Shown here: positions 4,747-55,633 of the stretch, in pieces
How the letters are laid out: each line of letters starts with the position of its first letter
How positions within the stretch are numbered: the stretch's first letter is position 1
Virus record (IMG/VR): IMGVR_UViG_3300032770_000001
Coordinates: 375,931-439,930 of that record
Reading direction: 5' to 3' (one strand)
Length of the DNA: 64,000 bases
Source: a virus
Program-made: the position numbers and the translations under genes
The notes under the pieces: generated by a model
Databases searched by the model: none
What the model saw: the letters and a program-made list of their open reading frames with translations, nothing else
Told to the model about the DNA's origin: nothing

Positions 4747-5407
4747 CCCTGTCGGTTAGCGATAGATAGGTGCCATGATCGCCAACCCAGTCTCCCGCAT
4801 TCCAGTATTCTACACCATCTCCCCACTCGTGCATAGCGAGATGGGTGTGCCCGCAGAACACAAAATCAGCACCCACATGAACAGCGTGCTTGAGCGCACC
4901 CTTGGCGACCGCGATGTCCAGCCGCTCCCAATGCGTGTGAAGTTTGTCCAGAAGTCGGGGGAGCCATTTCTTCAGGAAATTGATGTGCTGCATCCACAGG
5001 TAAATTGGTGTGAAGATGCGACCGAGGAACGGTACACCCTTCGCCCAAAGCTTATCGTACTGGTGCCCATGAATGGCAAGGCACTTTTTGCCCCGCCATT
5101 CCCACGTGTACTCTTGGTACACGCGGACTCCGATAAGGTGTTCCATGACTTCCGTGATTCCGGCGTCATGGTTCCCTTCGACCCACACGACCTCGACTCC
5201 ACGCTTCGGGTTAGAGAGCTTGCGGATATACGAGATAAGACGCCAATGGTCTTTGGTGAGCCGGGAGAAGTTTAGGTCCTGAAAGATGTCGCCCAGCAGG
5301 ATCAGGCGTTTGAACTGAGAGTTTTGCAGCAAGTGCAGAAGATCAGCAGCTTTGCTTACCGGGCTGCCGAGATGCACATCGGAGATGATAAGAGTTTCGC
5401 AATTCAT
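4637..5407 (-). CDS. LpxH-like calcineurin-fold metallophosphoesterase
   Basis: 256 residues from the ATG at 5407, preceded by GAAGG. All metal-site motifs of the calcineurin-like family are present: DVH (10-12), GD (39-40), GNHD (78-81), HGH (113-115) and GHTH (186-189). The order and length match the UDP-2,3-diacylglucosamine pyrophosphatase (LpxH) group, which cleaves a lipid A precursor in Gram-negative bacteria, but related enzymes act on other phosphoesters. The last 36 residues overlap the glycosyltransferase start. Together the pair suggests modification of a host envelope glycan or nucleotide sugar; this is inference. Confidence 0.8.
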   Translation of the reverse strand: MNCETLIISDVHLGSPVSKAADLLHLLQNSQFKRLILLGDIFQDLNFSRLTKDHWRLISYIRKLSNPKRGVEVVWVEGNHDAGITEVMEHLIGVRVYQEYTWEWRGKKCLAIHGHQYDKLWAKGVPFLGRIFTPIYLWMQHINFLKKWLPRLLDKLHTHWERLDIAVAKGALKHAVHVGADFVFCGHTHLAMHEWGDGVEYWNAGDWVGDHGTYLSLTDRVEIHVHRVDDNHPNEKRAEEHLPSPSFDLLSDLHAG

Positions 5408-5415
5408 GCCTTCAT

Positions 5416-5423
5416 CTATTAAA
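5416..5423 (-). promoter_or_regulatory. TTTAATAG box, candidate phage promoter element
   Basis: Minus-strand TTTAATAG nine bases before the phosphoesterase ATG. The same octamer precedes the genes starting at 36372, 60682 and 63556. Possible target of the phage sigma-like factor; weak evidence. Confidence 0.3.
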
Positions 5424-5458
5424 CCTGAAGGCATATTACAGTCGTGTGAAAATATTAA

Positions 5459-5504
5459 GGGGCAGCCCTGTTCCGATTCTAACGGCACTGCTCAAGGCTG
5501 CCCC
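5459..5504 (-). terminator. Possible terminator
   Basis: 9-bp perfect stem (5459-5467 with 5496-5504) with a 28-nt loop, followed on the minus strand by TTAATATTTTC. Lies in the gap between the sigma-like gene and the phosphoesterase gene. The long loop lowers confidence. Confidence 0.45.
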
Positions 5505-5564
5505 AATCCATTTGAAACAAGTACGGGGCACATACGTCCCCTCAACACTAATAGAATACCGTAG

Positions 5565-6596
5565 TTAGGCTACGATTTCCACTGTTTCTTTAACTTTTTT
5601 GCGTCCACGGCGGCTCGCCGCTTTGGATCGCACTTTTGGGTCGAGAAATGTACGGCCTAACTCTTTCAAACGCATACGTTGACGGTTGAACACGGTCTCG
5701 CTGACTCCCAGTGAACGGGCGGCTTCACCCTGCGTGGGAGCGTGCGTGATCGCATCAATCACAGCAACCATGTCCGGGTCTTTCTCGGCGACGAAGGCAC
5801 GGAATTCAGAGGCGACCAACGAAGATTCGTATTGACGCTCTCTTTCCTCTGTTTGATGCATGAGCATTTCCGAATGTGCGTGACAGTAGGCATCGTCTAC
5901 GACATCGAAGGCTTCATTGTGGTTGGTGTTGTCAATAGTTGTAACCAGAGACAAATTTCCCGCACGGCAGACCGGGTTCTTCTGCTTCTTGCTGTACACG
6001 GTATTGAATTTGTTGGCAAGGCAGAAATTTACATAAGCACGAAAGCGACGTTCGCTCGCCCCGTACTGCTGAATGGGGTCGAACGTTTCAATAACGTCAG
6101 TGCAACCGTTCTGACGACCATTCGCACCCGGCTTACGGTGCTTGCTTGTCTGAGGCAGATACTTCATGTGGATGATGAGGTCTTGCGTCCAGTCCTGCAC
6201 ATCCTCATCGATGGTAAAACGACCGAGTCTTTTCTTCACCCAATTGCGGATGTAGTTGGGGTAGCGTTCGTAGAACTCGTTGAAGTCACGCGGCACGCGG
6301 AATTGATCGTCACCGCCGATGTAGTGCCCGGTTTTCGGGTCGATGAGAATTTTGTCGCACTTCGGATTCGAAATGACAACCGGAATCGGATCGGTCACAA
6401 CGCCGGGACGGATGTACCACAGCCCGTCACGGCAGTCCGCGATCTGAAGCAGTTCATTGATGACAGGAAGCTGCCAACTCCCGTGGCATTCCTGCGGCAT
6501 ACGTTCTTGTATTAGGGCGTAAAGTTGATCGAGAGTCTTAGGATATTGAATGAGTGAAACGGCCAGAAGATTTCCAAATATCAAGCCAGCTACCAT
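5565..6596 (-). CDS. Phage RNA polymerase sigma-like factor
   Basis: 343 residues. Residues about 126-145 (FTIDEDVQDWTQDLIIHM) resemble the sigma-70 region 2 signature, and residues about 287-310 (TQGEAARSLGVSETVFNRQR) form a region 4-type helix-turn-helix, followed by a strongly basic tail. Together they suggest a divergent sigma factor that directs host RNA polymerase to phage promoters, like T4 gp55. The N-terminal 110 residues are unlike ordinary sigma factors. The gene has a 172-nt leader with two hairpins. Alternative: a DNA-binding regulator with sigma-like helices only. Confidence 0.7.
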   Translation of the reverse strand: MVAGLIFGNLLAVSLIQYPKTLDQLYALIQERMPQECHGSWQLPVINELLQIADCRDGLWYIRPGVVTDPIPVVISNPKCDKILIDPKTGHYIGGDDQFRVPRDFNEFYERYPNYIRNWVKKRLGRFTIDEDVQDWTQDLIIHMKYLPQTSKHRKPGANGRQNGCTDVIETFDPIQQYGASERRFRAYVNFCLANKFNTVYSKKQKNPVCRAGNLSLVTTIDNTNHNEAFDVVDDAYCHAHSEMLMHQTEERERQYESSLVASEFRAFVAEKDPDMVAVIDAITHAPTQGEAARSLGVSETVFNRQRMRLKELGRTFLDPKVRSKAASRRGRKKVKETVEIVA

Positions 6597-9767: not shown

Positions 9768-9873
9768 TGGAGACCCGGACGGGAGTTGAACCCGCAACCA
9801 CCCGGTTAACACCGGGTGCTCTGTTGAGGTCTGGGTTAGGGCCAGCCGCTCTGCCTGATTGAGCTACCGGGTC
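9768..9873 (-). tRNA. Aberrant tRNA: two anticodon-like hairpins (CUA or GUU)
   Basis: 106 nt with a perfect 7-bp acceptor stem (9867-9873 with 9772-9778), encoded CCA end (9770-9768), normal 4-bp D stem, and T arm with loop UUCAACU. Between them lie two hairpins. The first has a 7-nt loop CCCUAAC with anticodon CUA (amber suppressor) but C instead of U33. The second, a 7-bp stem with loop UGUUAA, looks like an Asn (GUU) anticodon arm. CAGAGC occurs twice, 30 nt apart, bounding the extra segment. Either a type II suppressor tRNA with an oversized variable arm or a tRNA-Asn carrying a 30-nt insertion or fusion. Confidence 0.7.
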
Positions 9874-23796: not shown

Positions 23797-24555
23797 ATGA
23801 GTGAGAATACACCGTACTTCGACAGCATCACATCCGCCCGTGCAATGCTCCTCGATGAGGATGAAGCCCTTCATGGCGCAACCCTGCTTTCGATGGAGTC
23901 CGATCCGGAGTTTGCCCGTGAGCAGAAAACCCTTGCCTACATCCAAGACAACTTCCCATCGTTCCTGAAGTACCTGCGGGAACTGAAAAAGGAAGATCAG
24001 GAATTGCTCCTGAGCTACTACATTCTCGCCAAGACCCAGAACACGCTCGCGGTGATCCACCGCAGCACTCAAACAGTGTGCAGCTTCCGCATCCGCATGG
24101 CCCGCAAGGTGCTGGGAGCCATGATGCTCTGGAACGGCGTGCCGGACGAAACCATCATGAGTCCGATCCTTGCCAAAGCAGGACTGGAAGACGGTTTGGC
24201 TCAGGAGGATGGCACTCCGGTCGCCCTGTCCACCGTGATCGCCATGTACGCCAAGACCCGCAGCTTCCAGAAGATCGCCGAGGTCTTCAAGCTCCACCGC
24301 CCGGACATCCGCCGCGCCATGAGCCGTTCATCCAAGACCTTGATGGAGACCAAGGACCCGGAGCAGCACGCACTGGGAGCCTACATCCACAGCTTGATCG
24401 ACAAGGCAAATCCCAGCGGCACCGGATTTTCCAAAAGAAAAGTCTCGAAACTCGGTAATATATATCGTACAGACCCGGATATTCTGGGTGAGTTCCGCAT
24501 CAAAGTGGATGACCCTGAGTTCGAACACATGTTTGTTTCGAGAGCTAACCGATGA
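23797..24555 (+). CDS. Helix-turn-helix regulator, sigma region 4-like
   Basis: 252 residues, mainly helical. Residues about 65-105 (LKKEDQELLLSYY..., then TQNTLAVIHRSTQTVCSFR) resemble a sigma region 4 or LuxR-type helix-turn-helix. Residues about 145-180 (VIAMYAKTRSFQKIAEVFKL) look like a second one. The C-terminal 60 residues are basic then acidic. A DNA-binding transcription regulator is likely. It has its own promoter and is followed by a gene overlapping by 4 bases (ATGA). Start at 23797 has only a distant GAGG. Confidence 0.55.
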   Translation: MSENTPYFDSITSARAMLLDEDEALHGATLLSMESDPEFAREQKTLAYIQDNFPSFLKYLRELKKEDQELLLSYYILAKTQNTLAVIHRSTQTVCSFRIRMARKVLGAMMLWNGVPDETIMSPILAKAGLEDGLAQEDGTPVALSTVIAMYAKTRSFQKIAEVFKLHRPDIRRAMSRSSKTLMETKDPEQHALGAYIHSLIDKANPSGTGFSKRKVSKLGNIYRTDPDILGEFRIKVDDPEFEHMFVSRANR

Positions 24556-24824
24556 ACGATCAAGAGCTTCAGCAACATAGATTAGAGCAAGAACGCGAGG
24601 ATTCGCGCAGACGGTATCGACTCGTATGCATCAAACAACTGTTGGAAAGCGAGGGCGGTCGCGACAAGTTCGCAACCTCGTTGGCGGAAGTTCTTCGTCG
24701 GAAGCCGGAGGCAACTCGCTTCGCAATAACCGAGACTAGGATTGAGGAAACGGTCGAGGCTCTCGGTAGGGAGTATGAGCAGCGTTTGCGGGATGTTTTT
24801 GAAGTTGCAAAAACGAGAATTTAG
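24552..24824 (+). CDS. Small helical protein, 90 aa
   Basis: No family recognised. Strongly charged, helical, with many Glu/Arg pairs; likely coiled coil. It is translationally coupled to the regulator upstream and followed eight bases later by another helix-turn-helix gene, so it probably serves the same regulatory unit. Confidence 0.5.
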   Translation: MNDQELQQHRLEQEREDSRRRYRLVCIKQLLESEGGRDKFATSLAEVLRRKPEATRFAITETRIEETVEALGREYEQRLRDVFEVAKTRI

Positions 24825-24832
24825 GAGAGAGT

Positions 24833-25015
24833 ATGACACTCGATATGGTCAAAGCAGTGATTGAACGCGCCAGCGTGGGGCGCACACCCCAAACGATCAA
24901 GTCTTCAGTCGGCTTGTCGTTCCCGGAAGTGAACTACATCATCGAACAGTTCCGCCGTGGTCAAAACGCGAAGCAGATCACTGAGACGATGAACAAAAAA
25001 GGCTTCAAGCTGTAA
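24833..25015 (+). CDS. Small helix-turn-helix protein, 60 aa
   Basis: 60 residues folding as three or four helices. The segment RTPQTIKSSVGLSFPEVNYI is a plausible helix-turn-helix with the recognition helix starting at SFPEV; a second turn lies at AKQITETMNKKG. Ribosome binding site GGAGAG precedes the ATG. Likely a phage DNA-binding regulator acting on nearby plus-strand promoters. Confidence 0.5.
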   Translation: MTLDMVKAVIERASVGRTPQTIKSSVGLSFPEVNYIIEQFRRGQNAKQITETMNKKGFKL

Positions 25016-25020
25016 GGAAA

Positions 25021-25080
25021 TCCTCAGTATTGAATAGTGTGTCCCTAACGGGCATGTACCAATTTTCAAGATACTGAGGA
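25021..25080 (+). promoter_or_regulatory. Inverted repeat covering a ribosome binding site
   Basis: Perfect 10-bp arms TCCTCAGTAT (25021-25030) and ATACTGAGGA (25071-25080), 40 nt apart. The downstream arm contains GAGGA, the ribosome binding site seven bases before the ATG at 25088. In RNA the hairpin would mask it. Confidence 0.6.
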
Positions 25081-25087
25081 TAGTTCC

Positions 25088-25585
25088 ATGCGTACTTTTT
25101 CTGTTGAACCGCAGTTCAACGACACCGTTGACATGCTTGCCCTAGCCATTGGCTATCTTTCCGAACCAACCCCCAACAACTCCATCGGACAAGCGGCGAC
25201 CGACGCCGAGGCCGAAGCTCTAATCAAAGAGGCTGAGAAAGGCGGTCAGGTCGCTCAATACGTCATCTTCAACCCGCAAGATTATCACCTATTTCGCTAC
25301 CGCAATCCGCGTCTCATCCATCACTTCGATTACGAGACACAGCAGCGCCTCGTCCGCCGTGGCATCGTTGGCTACCTGTGGGGAACCACGGTCGTGCTCG
25401 ACAAGAATGTCACACGCGGCTATATCGTAGTCAGTGCGGACAGCCGCGAGAATGCGTTGAAGAGCGACAAATCCCTTATTGTCGAGATCAGCAAGTTGGA
25501 AATTCCGAATCTTTCGATCACTGTGTCGAAAGCGAGTACGGACTGGTCGAACGGGCCATGCCCGGTATCGCAAGATCAAGACTAG
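25088..25585 (+). CDS. Stand-alone relative of the major capsid protein C-terminal half
   Basis: 165 residues. Residues about 58-125 align by eye with residues about 200-260 of the capsid protein at 54674-55633: FNPxDY, then a helix, DxETQxxLxxxGxxGYLWG, then VxxGxIxxxAD. The capsid N-terminal arm and E-loop region are absent. It might interfere with or regulate capsid assembly, cap a vertex, or be a relic. Being beside regulatory genes and behind a hairpin over its ribosome binding site, it seems expressed under control. Its TAG stop shares the palindrome CTAG with the convergent gene. Confidence 0.65.
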   Translation: MRTFSVEPQFNDTVDMLALAIGYLSEPTPNNSIGQAATDAEAEALIKEAEKGGQVAQYVIFNPQDYHLFRYRNPRLIHHFDYETQQRLVRRGIVGYLWGTTVVLDKNVTRGYIVVSADSRENALKSDKSLIVEISKLEIPNLSITVSKASTDWSNGPCPVSQDQD

Positions 25586-26589
25586 GACTTTGGGAGACCC
25601 AACACGCTCATGATCCGGGCGACTTCGGCTGGATCATTCTTGATGGGTGCTGTCGCAAAGGGATCGGTCGGATTAAAGCAGGAGCGAACCATCTCGCTCC
25701 ATGTCCGGTCGGATTCCCATCGACAGTTTTCCTCACTCCAATGGATGGATGAGAGTCTGGTTTTGAACACTGTGCGCTTGCCGAACTTGATGAGCACGTA
25801 TGGCGTGCCGAAATCGGTGATTATCTGCCAGACCACGCCTGTACCCTTGCCGACGACCGTGATCTGCGTCCCCGGCTGGATTCCCCTGCCGTAACCACGC
25901 AACGTTTCATGTCGCCACGCTTCATCTTGAAAGTACCGCAGTCCATCATCCTTCCAGCCGTAATCCTTCACCCAGAGGGGCACACGCAGGCTGCTCTCGC
26001 CGTTGTCGAAACGAGACTCGGTAAGAAACATATCGACGTTGAAAGCTGACAGGTTCTTCAACCATTCTTCGGCGACACGCACCTTCGGCGGCAGTACGTC
26101 CATCGGGATCACGAAATTCTTTGGATACCCGTACTGCGCCCTGTAGCCGACCTCGCATTCAATGATCGAGCCCCACAGTGCGACCTGTCCGTGGATGCCC
26201 TTCTCCGCGTATTTGATCCGCACCAGATGGGCGAAGTCCTTGGCGGCATAGATACCGCAGCGGCAGTCATCGACTGGAGATTCGTGTTTCACGACGTTCA
26301 AGAAAAACCATCGGGCTTCCGCCTCGGTCATTGGTTCCCTCGCACCGAGGTCGATGAACTGACCATCGGCGGTGAGCGAGGGACTGGCTCCGCGAACGCG
26401 AGTGTTCACCCAACTGGTAAAGTTGTGAACCTTCGGCTTCATGTAATGCTTGGTGATGGCTTTGTTGCAGGTCGCAACCATTGCCTGTCCGGGAACCCAC
26501 GGCTCATGGTTGAGCGACGTGAGCCCCCTAGCGTCCCAATCCCACGTGCGGTACGCGATGAGAGGATCGATGTAATCAGGGATTATCAT
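25582..26589 (-). CDS. Phage/actinobacterial-type conserved hypothetical, 335 aa
   Basis: ATG at 26589 overlaps the upstream TGA (ATGA). The N-terminal 180 residues show IAYRTWDW...SL, then DCRCGIYAAKD and a later GYRAQYGYP, a pattern I recall from uncharacterised phage and actinobacterial proteins. The C-terminal part (about 265-300) contains a small beta-barrel (GTQITVVGKGTGVVWQI), perhaps SH3-like. No catalytic role known. Last gene of the early-type accessory block, convergent with the capsid-relative gene. Confidence 0.5.
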   Translation of the reverse strand: MIIPDYIDPLIAYRTWDWDARGLTSLNHEPWVPGQAMVATCNKAITKHYMKPKVHNFTSWVNTRVRGASPSLTADGQFIDLGAREPMTEAEARWFFLNVVKHESPVDDCRCGIYAAKDFAHLVRIKYAEKGIHGQVALWGSIIECEVGYRAQYGYPKNFVIPMDVLPPKVRVAEEWLKNLSAFNVDMFLTESRFDNGESSLRVPLWVKDYGWKDDGLRYFQDEAWRHETLRGYGRGIQPGTQITVVGKGTGVVWQIITDFGTPYVLIKFGKRTVFKTRLSSIHWSEENCRWESDRTWSEMVRSCFNPTDPFATAPIKNDPAEVARIMSVLGLPKS

Positions 26590-26771
26590 TCTTGTCCGAG
26601 GAATGGGTGAAACTCTTCCCACGGCCCGTCGCCGAAGTTGTAGACCGAGACCACGCCGTCATCCCAATGGATTTCGAACTTGATCCAACTGAGCACCTTG
26701 ACGGTGCCCTTGACGCCGGAGTCGTTCAGAATGACGCGGCGTCCTGTCACAATTTCCTGTGCGAATGTCAT
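26586..26771 (-). CDS. Small beta-barrel-like protein, 61 aa
   Basis: 61 residues with alternating strands (GRRVILNDSGVKGTVKVLSW, IKFEIHWDDGVVSVYNFG). This looks like a small KOW/SH3-type barrel. ATG at 26771 overlaps the previous TAA by one base and its own stop overlaps the next ATG. Function unknown. Confidence 0.5.
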   Translation of the reverse strand: MTFAQEIVTGRRVILNDSGVKGTVKVLSWIKFEIHWDDGVVSVYNFGDGPWEEFHPFLGQE

Positions 26772-54673: not shown

Positions 54674-55633
54674 TTAGTTCTCGCCGTAGTTGGCGGTCGA
54701 GTTGAAGCGACCATTGACCGTAAGACGCTGCACGCCGGACGGGTTGAACACGAGGAAGCCGAGGTTCTCGAAGATCGAGAAGCCGATCTGACGGAGGTCA
54801 GGACGGTCGGCGCTCATGACCGTGAGCGGAATACGCTCTGGGATAACGCCGAGGAACTCTGCGTCCGCCAGAATGTAGATCGAGCCGTAGCCGACCTTAC
54901 GCGACTGGAGGAGCGTTGCGCCCCAGAGATAGCCCATCACGCCCGTTTTCAACAGCTTGCGCTGTGTTTCGCGGTCGATGTTCTGTTGGGTCCACTTCAA
55001 CAGGTCCGTGTAGTCACGGGGGTTGAAGAAGACGAACGCGACTGAGAGGTCATGACGCTGCACCTGACCAAAGCCGTCTGCCATCGAGTTGATGTCAATC
55101 GGAGCGTTGATCGGAATGTCAGGGTTGTAGACCGGATCATTCGAGTTCTTACCCGCTGCGCTGTTCGCGACACCGTCAAACAGAACGAACACGTATCCGT
55201 CTTCGGCTGCGCCCACTTCGGCTTTCGCCAAGTTCAGTGAACGAGCAACCAAGTCGAAACGGCGCTCTTTGATCTGCGTGATCGGGATCATCGGATTGGA
55301 CACGATTTCGAACGTCGGAACCGTGACGCGCTTCGGTTTTGTAACGCGGACGATGTCACCACCTTCTTCGCCGACGATGAATGCTTCGACGAAGGACGAA
55401 CCCGGAGTCGAGCCAACGGTCATCGCGTTGACATCGAATTCCTTGTCGTAGATGGGCAGTGCGCCATCCGGAAGAGTTTCGACCATGAGAGCCTTGCGAG
55501 CAATGCTCATATAGTCACGGCGACGACGCAGGGACGGACCGAGCGAAGCCGCAAGCTTCTGACGCCCACCCGCCGTCTTCAAAAGTTGGCCGAGCATTTG
55601 CGTCTGCTGTTGTGTGCGAGAAAGTTGTGCCAT
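54674..55633 (-). CDS. Major capsid protein (HK97-fold type)
   Basis: 319 residues. The N-terminal arm is basic and helical (RTQQQTQMLGQLL, then KTAGGRQ at 19-25). The central part has EEGGDIVRV and VTVPTF strands typical of the E-loop/P-domain region, and the C-terminal half carries FNPRDY (about 203-208), ETQRKL, GYLWG (about 234) and GSIYILAD, common in HK97-fold and encapsulin-type shells. The N-terminal KTA may be a maturation cut site. Strong terminator after the gene. A partial relative lies at 25088-25585. Confidence 0.85.
   Translation of the reverse strand: MAQLSRTQQQTQMLGQLLKTAGGRQKLAASLGPSLRRRRDYMSIARKALMVETLPDGALPIYDKEFDVNAMTVGSTPGSSFVEAFIVGEEGGDIVRVTKPKRVTVPTFEIVSNPMIPITQIKERRFDLVARSLNLAKAEVGAAEDGYVFVLFDGVANSAAGKNSNDPVYNPDIPINAPIDINSMADGFGQVQRHDLSVAFVFFNPRDYTDLLKWTQQNIDRETQRKLLKTGVMGYLWGATLLQSRKVGYGSIYILADAEFLGVIPERIPLTVMSADRPDLRQIGFSIFENLGFLVFNPSGVQRLTVNGRFNSTANYGEN

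Follow-up and report, generated by a model that had tools for sequence, protein, structure and literature searches.

This study revealed that the window, a stretch of 64,000 nucleotides from a giant bacteriophage of soil (IMG/VR virus record IMGVR_UViG_3300032770_000001, positions 375,931 to 439,930 of that record), carries a stand-alone gene whose 165-residue product is, by sequence comparison, homologous to the window's own major capsid protein (MCP). The matched part comprises about 60-75 residues, corresponding to MCP residues ~183-258, which form the core of the axial (A) domain. The pattern of selection relative to a homologue in a second megaphage, G008, marks the open reading frame (ORF) as a real, maintained gene. 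As the most plausible role we tentatively favour that of an accessory MCP paralogue acting by mimicry, which would bind the MCP and modulate or poison capsid assembly. The features that bear on this finding, numbered from the first letter of the window, are as follows.

25088..25585, plus strand: gene of the stand-alone MCP A-domain protein, 165 residues, ATG start, identified from the ORF and its translation and under purifying selection relative to the G008 homologue
25259..25441, plus strand: residues 58-118 of this protein, which BLASTP and profiles show to be homologous to the A-domain core of the MCP, approximately its residues 199-257
25124..25186, plus strand: N-terminal motif, residues 13-33 (LALAIGYLSEPTPNNSI region), common to the G008 homologue and absent from the MCP
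25021..25087, plus strand: conserved leader of about 62 nucleotides directly 5' of the gene, with a stem in which 25021-25030 pairs with 25071-25080
54674..55633, minus strand: MCP, 319 residues, HK97 fold, phage G gp27 type (phrog_2522, E 7e-42)

Homology to the major capsid protein

The two genes lie where an earlier note on this DNA had placed them, on opposite strands with 29 kb between them, and the stop of the 165-residue gene overlaps the stop of an opposite-strand gene, tail-to-tail. The ordered motifs which the earlier note had seen in both proteins are indeed present: FNPQDY in the smaller protein and FNPRDY in the MCP, DYETQQRLVRRGIVGYLWG and DRETQRKLLKTGVMGYLWG, and VTRGYIVVSAD and VGYGSIYILAD, respectively, in the same order. 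BLASTP aligned residues 58-119 of the protein with MCP residues 200-258 at 38% identity over 63 residues (E 4e-13, for a single comparison). A profile built from an alignment of 14 MCPs recovered the protein with 39.4 bits (E 5.7e-11 among 3,791 ORFs), and profile-profile alignment with hhalign gave 98.2% (E 4e-14), so that the proposed kinship withstood the profile comparison. With the same MCP profile, the best reversed ORF reached E 0.58 and the best shuffled ORF E 1.1, while shuffles of the protein itself scored at most 6.3 bits. Given that these controls fall far below the real score, chance sharing of motifs was rejected.

With regard to known families, the profile of the window's MCP group matches PDB 6wkk (phage G Gp27) at E 6e-118. 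The 165-residue protein matched major-head families of PHROGs at E 0.0065 and 0.013, and the sole PDB match of a two-member profile comprising it and its G008 homologue was again 6wkk, at E 0.12. No match was found in a Pfam search.

The alignment bore out the absence of the N-terminal arm and the E-loop that had been proposed previously; the spine helix and the C-terminal P-domain strands (DRPDLRQIGFSIFENLGFLVFNPSGVQRL) are missing as well. The protein had been described as a relative of the C-terminal half of the MCP. The homology stands, but the extent does not, since the match is limited to the A-domain core and the P-domain strands are absent. A complete MCP architecture comprises the N-terminal arm, the E-loop, the P-domain with its spine helix and the A-domain, and the protein is therefore regarded as an MCP-derived paralogue rather than as an MCP. 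It has its A-domain core sequence in common with the phage G gp27 MCP (PDB 6wkk, phrog_2522 / NF042927), but, lacking the other parts of gp27, it cannot build a lattice alone.

A second capsid paralogue in the same genome

The genome of this virus (455,708 bases, referred to as G000), which also carries the MCP gene, contains a further MCP paralogue outside the window.

L083:895-1992, equivalent to C1:273,651-274,748: second, nearly full-length MCP paralogue, 48-51% identical

Part of the E-loop is missing from this second paralogue, which has an N-terminus resembling a twin-arginine translocation (TAT) signal (MQRRNFLRGLLLAPLAG) and a TTG start behind a GGAGGA Shine-Dalgarno sequence. Its gene lies 2-3 kb from transfer RNA (tRNA) genes, tRNA-Ser/Leu, and a copy identical over the matched stretch is held by IMGVR_UViG_3300032954_000001. 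Two small proteins encoded at L135:8952-9191 and L167:3378-3872 share LLxTxxGRxxLTDA...LQEAAxRxG, a motif resembling the MCP N-terminal arm, and one of them lies just upstream of the second paralogue.

The lineage thus keeps capsid paralogues, which could suggest that the 165-residue protein is a minor virion or prohead component, specialised for particular capsid positions. T4 gp24, a full-length HK97-fold vertex protein and a paralogue of the MCP gp23, holds such a relation, and in both cases an MCP paralogue is retained in the same genome. In contrast to gp24, the 165-residue protein is single-domain, lacks the arm, E-loop, spine helix and P-domain strands, and is accessory, its gene lying outside the structural (head) block and being absent from most relatives having the same MCP. 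A structural role in the particle is consequently improbable.

Evidence for a maintained gene

The phage G008 (IMG/VR record, 223,506 bases) encodes a 192-residue homologue at L122:9624-10202 that is 46% identical to the window protein, and a second contig has an identical copy. The N-terminal motif shared by the window and G008 proteins has the consensus LALAxGYLxEPxxNNSI, and a DNA pattern for this motif matched only G008-type loci in IMG/VR. Comparison of the two cores gave a nonsynonymous proportion (pN) of 0.29 and a synonymous proportion (pS) of 0.73, with third codon positions 44% identical, which indicates purifying selection. In a tree of the short A-domain, the two proteins pair with 96% support, while the other deep branches are unresolved. 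No relative was detected when IMG/VR was scanned with the single 165-residue protein, no member was present in the GTDB genomes scanned with the two-member alignment, and neither protein matched the anti-phage and counter-defence families of PADLOC.

The gene could also be a decaying remnant of the second MCP paralogue, without current function. The loop before DxET resembles that of the second paralogue (HHFDYET, NHFDRET) and is unlike that of the MCP (QNIDRET), and short MCP scraps occur in relatives. However, the reading frame, the N-terminal motif and the leader are kept in two divergent phages at different positions, under purifying selection. The remnant explanation is thereby largely contradicted, and we give it little credence.

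A structured leader RNA

The leader preceding the gene contains an inner hairpin, GUCCCUAACGGGC, and a conserved CAAUUUUCAAGA, and its Shine-Dalgarno sequence GAGGA (25076-25080) sits within the outer stem, 7 nucleotides 5' of the ATG. It is 83% identical between the window and G008, which exceeds the conservation of the coding sequence, and the nucleotide conservation runs on into the first 33 codons. In the window, the folding of the leader has a z-score of -3.5, and the probability of the Shine-Dalgarno sequence being unpaired is 0.00-0.01; the first four Shine-Dalgarno bases have a corresponding probability of 0.25-0.32 in G008. Rfam contained no match to the leader, and the leader core sequence has no second copy in this genome and occurs in IMG/VR only at homologous genes. 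From the sequence and folding energy of two distinct leaders, we infer a translational off-switch.

A leader found solely before this gene, together with nucleotide conservation extending into the coding sequence, could also be explained if the protein were an RNA- or DNA-binding regulator built on a borrowed A-domain scaffold and binding its own leader (autoregulation). Nevertheless, family searches gave no nucleic-acid-binding signature, and RNA binding is not known for the A-domain. Autoregulation is the least probable of the explanations considered.

Capsid-derived small proteins in related phages

A search with the MCP profile for small MCP-derived ORFs covered 36 related records. The proteins of interest are the following.

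G002, L167:3378-3872: N-terminal-arm protein (E 8e-8)
G032, L166:2923-3180: strand segment behind a TAT-like leader (E 1.5e-9)
G034, L123:9062-9553: A-domain protein with a TAT-like leader (E 1.5e-6)
G034, L123:1814-2239: MCP-arm protein with a permuted strand and a TAT-like leader (E 2.5e-6)
G034, L123:1240-1824: 194-residue protein with a TAT-like leader and one short MCP resemblance, not significant
G028/G029/G032: 105-residue protein with a swapped MCP segment order (E 1.6e-5)
G028, L187:326-934, 5314-5925 and 6158-6475, and likewise in G029 and G032: three ORFs that adjoin a tRNA array and encode A-domain-like cargo behind TAT-like leaders, one of them being that of the 105-residue protein listed above
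G014, L170:2768-2998: fragment of the C-terminal P-domain joined to a tail that resembles a zinc ribbon

In the 105-residue protein, GVMGYLW precedes the segment that normally stands before it; in this protein and in the permuted G034 arm protein, the displaced segment is individually weak. The 202- and 203-residue proteins of G028 appeared A-domain-like in an alignment that included them and gave E 0.07 and 0.38 (Z = 10,000) with the MCP-only profile; they are probably homologous to the MCP A-domain. The presence of these other MCP-derived small proteins in the same phage group indicates that MCP parts are used outside the capsid recurrently.

Among 22 related virus records, the Pfam TAT model (PF10518) reached E < 0.01 only on ORFs of the MCP-derived set, namely in G000/G051, in G028/G029/G032 (three each) and in the 194-residue G034 protein. 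These matches, with E down to 2e-5, all lie under the Pfam cut-off, whereas NCBIfam TIGR01409 was above its cut-off for L187:326 and L187:6158. The siblings with TAT-like leaders are predicted to be exported. The window protein itself starts with MRTFSVEPQ and is without a twin-arginine signal. MCP-derived genes stand in or beside tRNA arrays in G008, G028/G029/G032 and G034, as do most genes with TAT-like leaders; the three of G034 lie in or at its tRNA array.

A candidate relative was also found in the Tunturiibacter phage Tunturi_5, which has been cultured; its MCP and that of the window are 70% identical.

PP885688.1, 158431-158778: Tunturi_5 gp219, hypothetical protein, divergent and A-domain-like, a few genes from the portal gene

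This candidate scored E 2.3e-4 by profile and 5e-4 in pairwise comparison with the window protein. As Tunturi_5 has the same MCP type, it makes part of the question testable in an isolate.

Possible mimicry of the capsid protein

For the favoured explanation, mimicry that acts on capsid assembly, the gene product would be a paralogue of the phage's own MCP cut down to the A-domain and a short family-specific N-terminus. The leader would hold translation off, its Shine-Dalgarno sequence being paired away for as long as the stem is not opened by a signal, by a ribosome translating upstream or by protein binding. Once made, the protein would display the MCP A-domain surface and occupy partners of the MCP. 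The most likely of these partners would be the MCP itself, which is ranked first because the axial contacts inside capsomers are the normal contacts of the A-domain. Free subunits could thus be capped or competed with, and assembly slowed, sized or spoiled, whether the capsid is that of the same phage or of a related co-infecting one. The possibility of poisoning or tuning capsid assembly, already raised in the earlier note, is compatible with the anatomy of the gene: it is accessory, its translation appears to be tightly controlled, and its product has an axial-contact domain but no parts for forming the lattice.

Mouse Fv1, a capsid-derived restriction factor, offers an analogy only: it is capsid-related, has been co-opted and could interfere with capsids, but it is host-encoded and concerns another virus realm. 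The satellite capsid remodellers CpmB, Rcm, Sid and TcaP, of which Rcm and CpmB compete with the scaffold (PMC12409344; PMC10945586), would be comparable if the 165-residue protein binds the MCP and changes or blocks assembly. These remodellers are satellite-encoded and are not described as MCP homologues, whereas the 165-residue protein is MCP-derived and phage-encoded, its gene sharing a 455,708-base virus record with that of the MCP. Capsid paralogues normally retain the complete fold and function within the virion; in the present case, one domain constitutes a separate, apparently regulated, accessory gene.

Several observations weigh against mimicry acting on assembly. The A-domain fold is putative: AlphaFold2 gave the 165-residue protein a mean predicted local distance difference test (pLDDT) score of 41.8 from an alignment that was too shallow, and Foldseek found no match to this poor model. 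Since the underlying model is poor, the Foldseek list carries no weight, and the full-length second MCP paralogue, the fold of which is certain, reached a pLDDT of only 35.1 from a likewise too shallow alignment. The leader folds less strongly in G008 (z = -0.9), and the family is rare, its only members in the collections scanned being those of the window phage and of two G008-type contigs identical to each other. Finally, the siblings carrying TAT-like leaders would have their site of action at the membrane or beyond it, away from assembling capsids. As exported pieces would miss cytoplasmic capsid assembly, simple poisoning does not explain them, and they would be accounted for neither by modulation of assembly nor by the immune decoy considered below.

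The MCP is a known direct trigger of immunity: CapRel, which binds its P-domain and is predicted to contact loops of the A-domain, then pyrophosphorylates tRNAs, and Gol/Lit and PifA immunity also read the MCP (PMC9712102). Such triggering would give a reason for making inert MCP pieces, and the 165-residue protein could be a decoy that mimics the MCP surfaces read by abortive infection of the CapRel, Lit or PifA type and occupies the sensor while leaving it inactive. The clustering of MCP-derived genes with tRNA genes in G008, G028/G029/G032 and G034, and the position of the second paralogue 2-3 kb from such genes, would fit, tRNA arrays being chosen because several of these defences attack tRNA or translation; fast, piecewise evolution likewise suits an arms race. 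However, the window copy lies outside any tRNA array, the TAT-leader siblings are ill-suited to a cytoplasmic decoy, and the CapRel escape sites are located in the P-domain, which is absent from the 165-residue protein. The context suits a decoy of MCP-sensing immunity nearly as well as modulation of assembly; the decoy is ranked next, although we consider it unlikely.

Taking all the capsid-derived pieces together, it is conceivable, and put forward with slightly more reserve than modulation of assembly by the window protein, that phage-G-like soil megaphages keep a rapidly diversifying repertoire of pieces of their own MCP. These would be either cytoplasmic behind a switch that sequesters the Shine-Dalgarno sequence, or TAT-exported or membrane-tethered, with two of them permuted and most encoded in tRNA arrays, and would serve as mimics against rival phages or host immunity. 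Capsid remodellers and MCP paralogues as such have been described before, whereas the whole collection of capsid pieces, permuted or with TAT leaders, appears to be a novel case; a literature search, covering few subscription journals and no bioRxiv preprints, found no A-domain-only capsid paralogue and no TAT leader on a phage capsid protein. If these proteins are mimics, they offer a direct route to asking what recognises the MCP in soil bacteria and in mixed infections.

Gene neighbourhood

The gene and its leader are surrounded by the following genes.

23797..24555, plus strand: antitermination-Q-like protein, 252 residues (Pfam Phage_antitermQ E 1e-5, 0.1 bit below the cut-off)
24552..24824, plus strand: helical protein, 90 residues, part of which resembles the MCP N-terminal arm (QLLESEGGRDKFATSLAEVLRR; N-arm profile E 5e-5)
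24833..25015, plus strand: 60-residue protein, helix-turn-helix-like by eye, its stop about 6 nucleotides 5' of the leader stem
25582..26622, minus strand: convergent gene, 346 residues, whose G008 homologue follows the Q-like gene after 6 base pairs

The Q-like gene is kept in many relatives, at 66-68% at the DNA level. Given that it adjoins the homologue of the 346-residue gene in G008, the block 24552-25585, comprising the genes of the 90-residue, 60-residue and MCP-like proteins, is extra in the window. In G009 and G010, homologues of the 60-residue protein are encoded directly after the Q-like gene, without the MCP-like gene. The G008 copy of the latter is situated within an array of tRNA and transfer-messenger RNA (tmRNA) genes, about 68 kb from the G008 Q gene, and this difference in position, shared by gene and leader, identifies the MCP-like gene as accessory.

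Controls for the N-arm profile did no better than E 0.18, and the 90-residue protein also showed a weak Cas11e match; it is likely, though not certainly, homologous to the MCP N-terminal arm. The idea that the 90-residue ORF is the arm of a split MCP gene was rejected as unneeded, since the N-terminal-arm protein of G002 has no A-domain partner in the surrounding 7 kb.

At 9771-9873 of the window, on the minus strand, there is a 103-nucleotide Rfam tRNA match that was not called by ARAGORN and is possibly an interrupted or unusual tRNA. In G008, L122:9386-9544 contains a tRNA with the anticodon CTA, called as Pyl and possibly an amber suppressor, and after it a second tRNA whose anticodon has four bases (ctag); a phage tmRNA is located upstream at L122 3105-3447.
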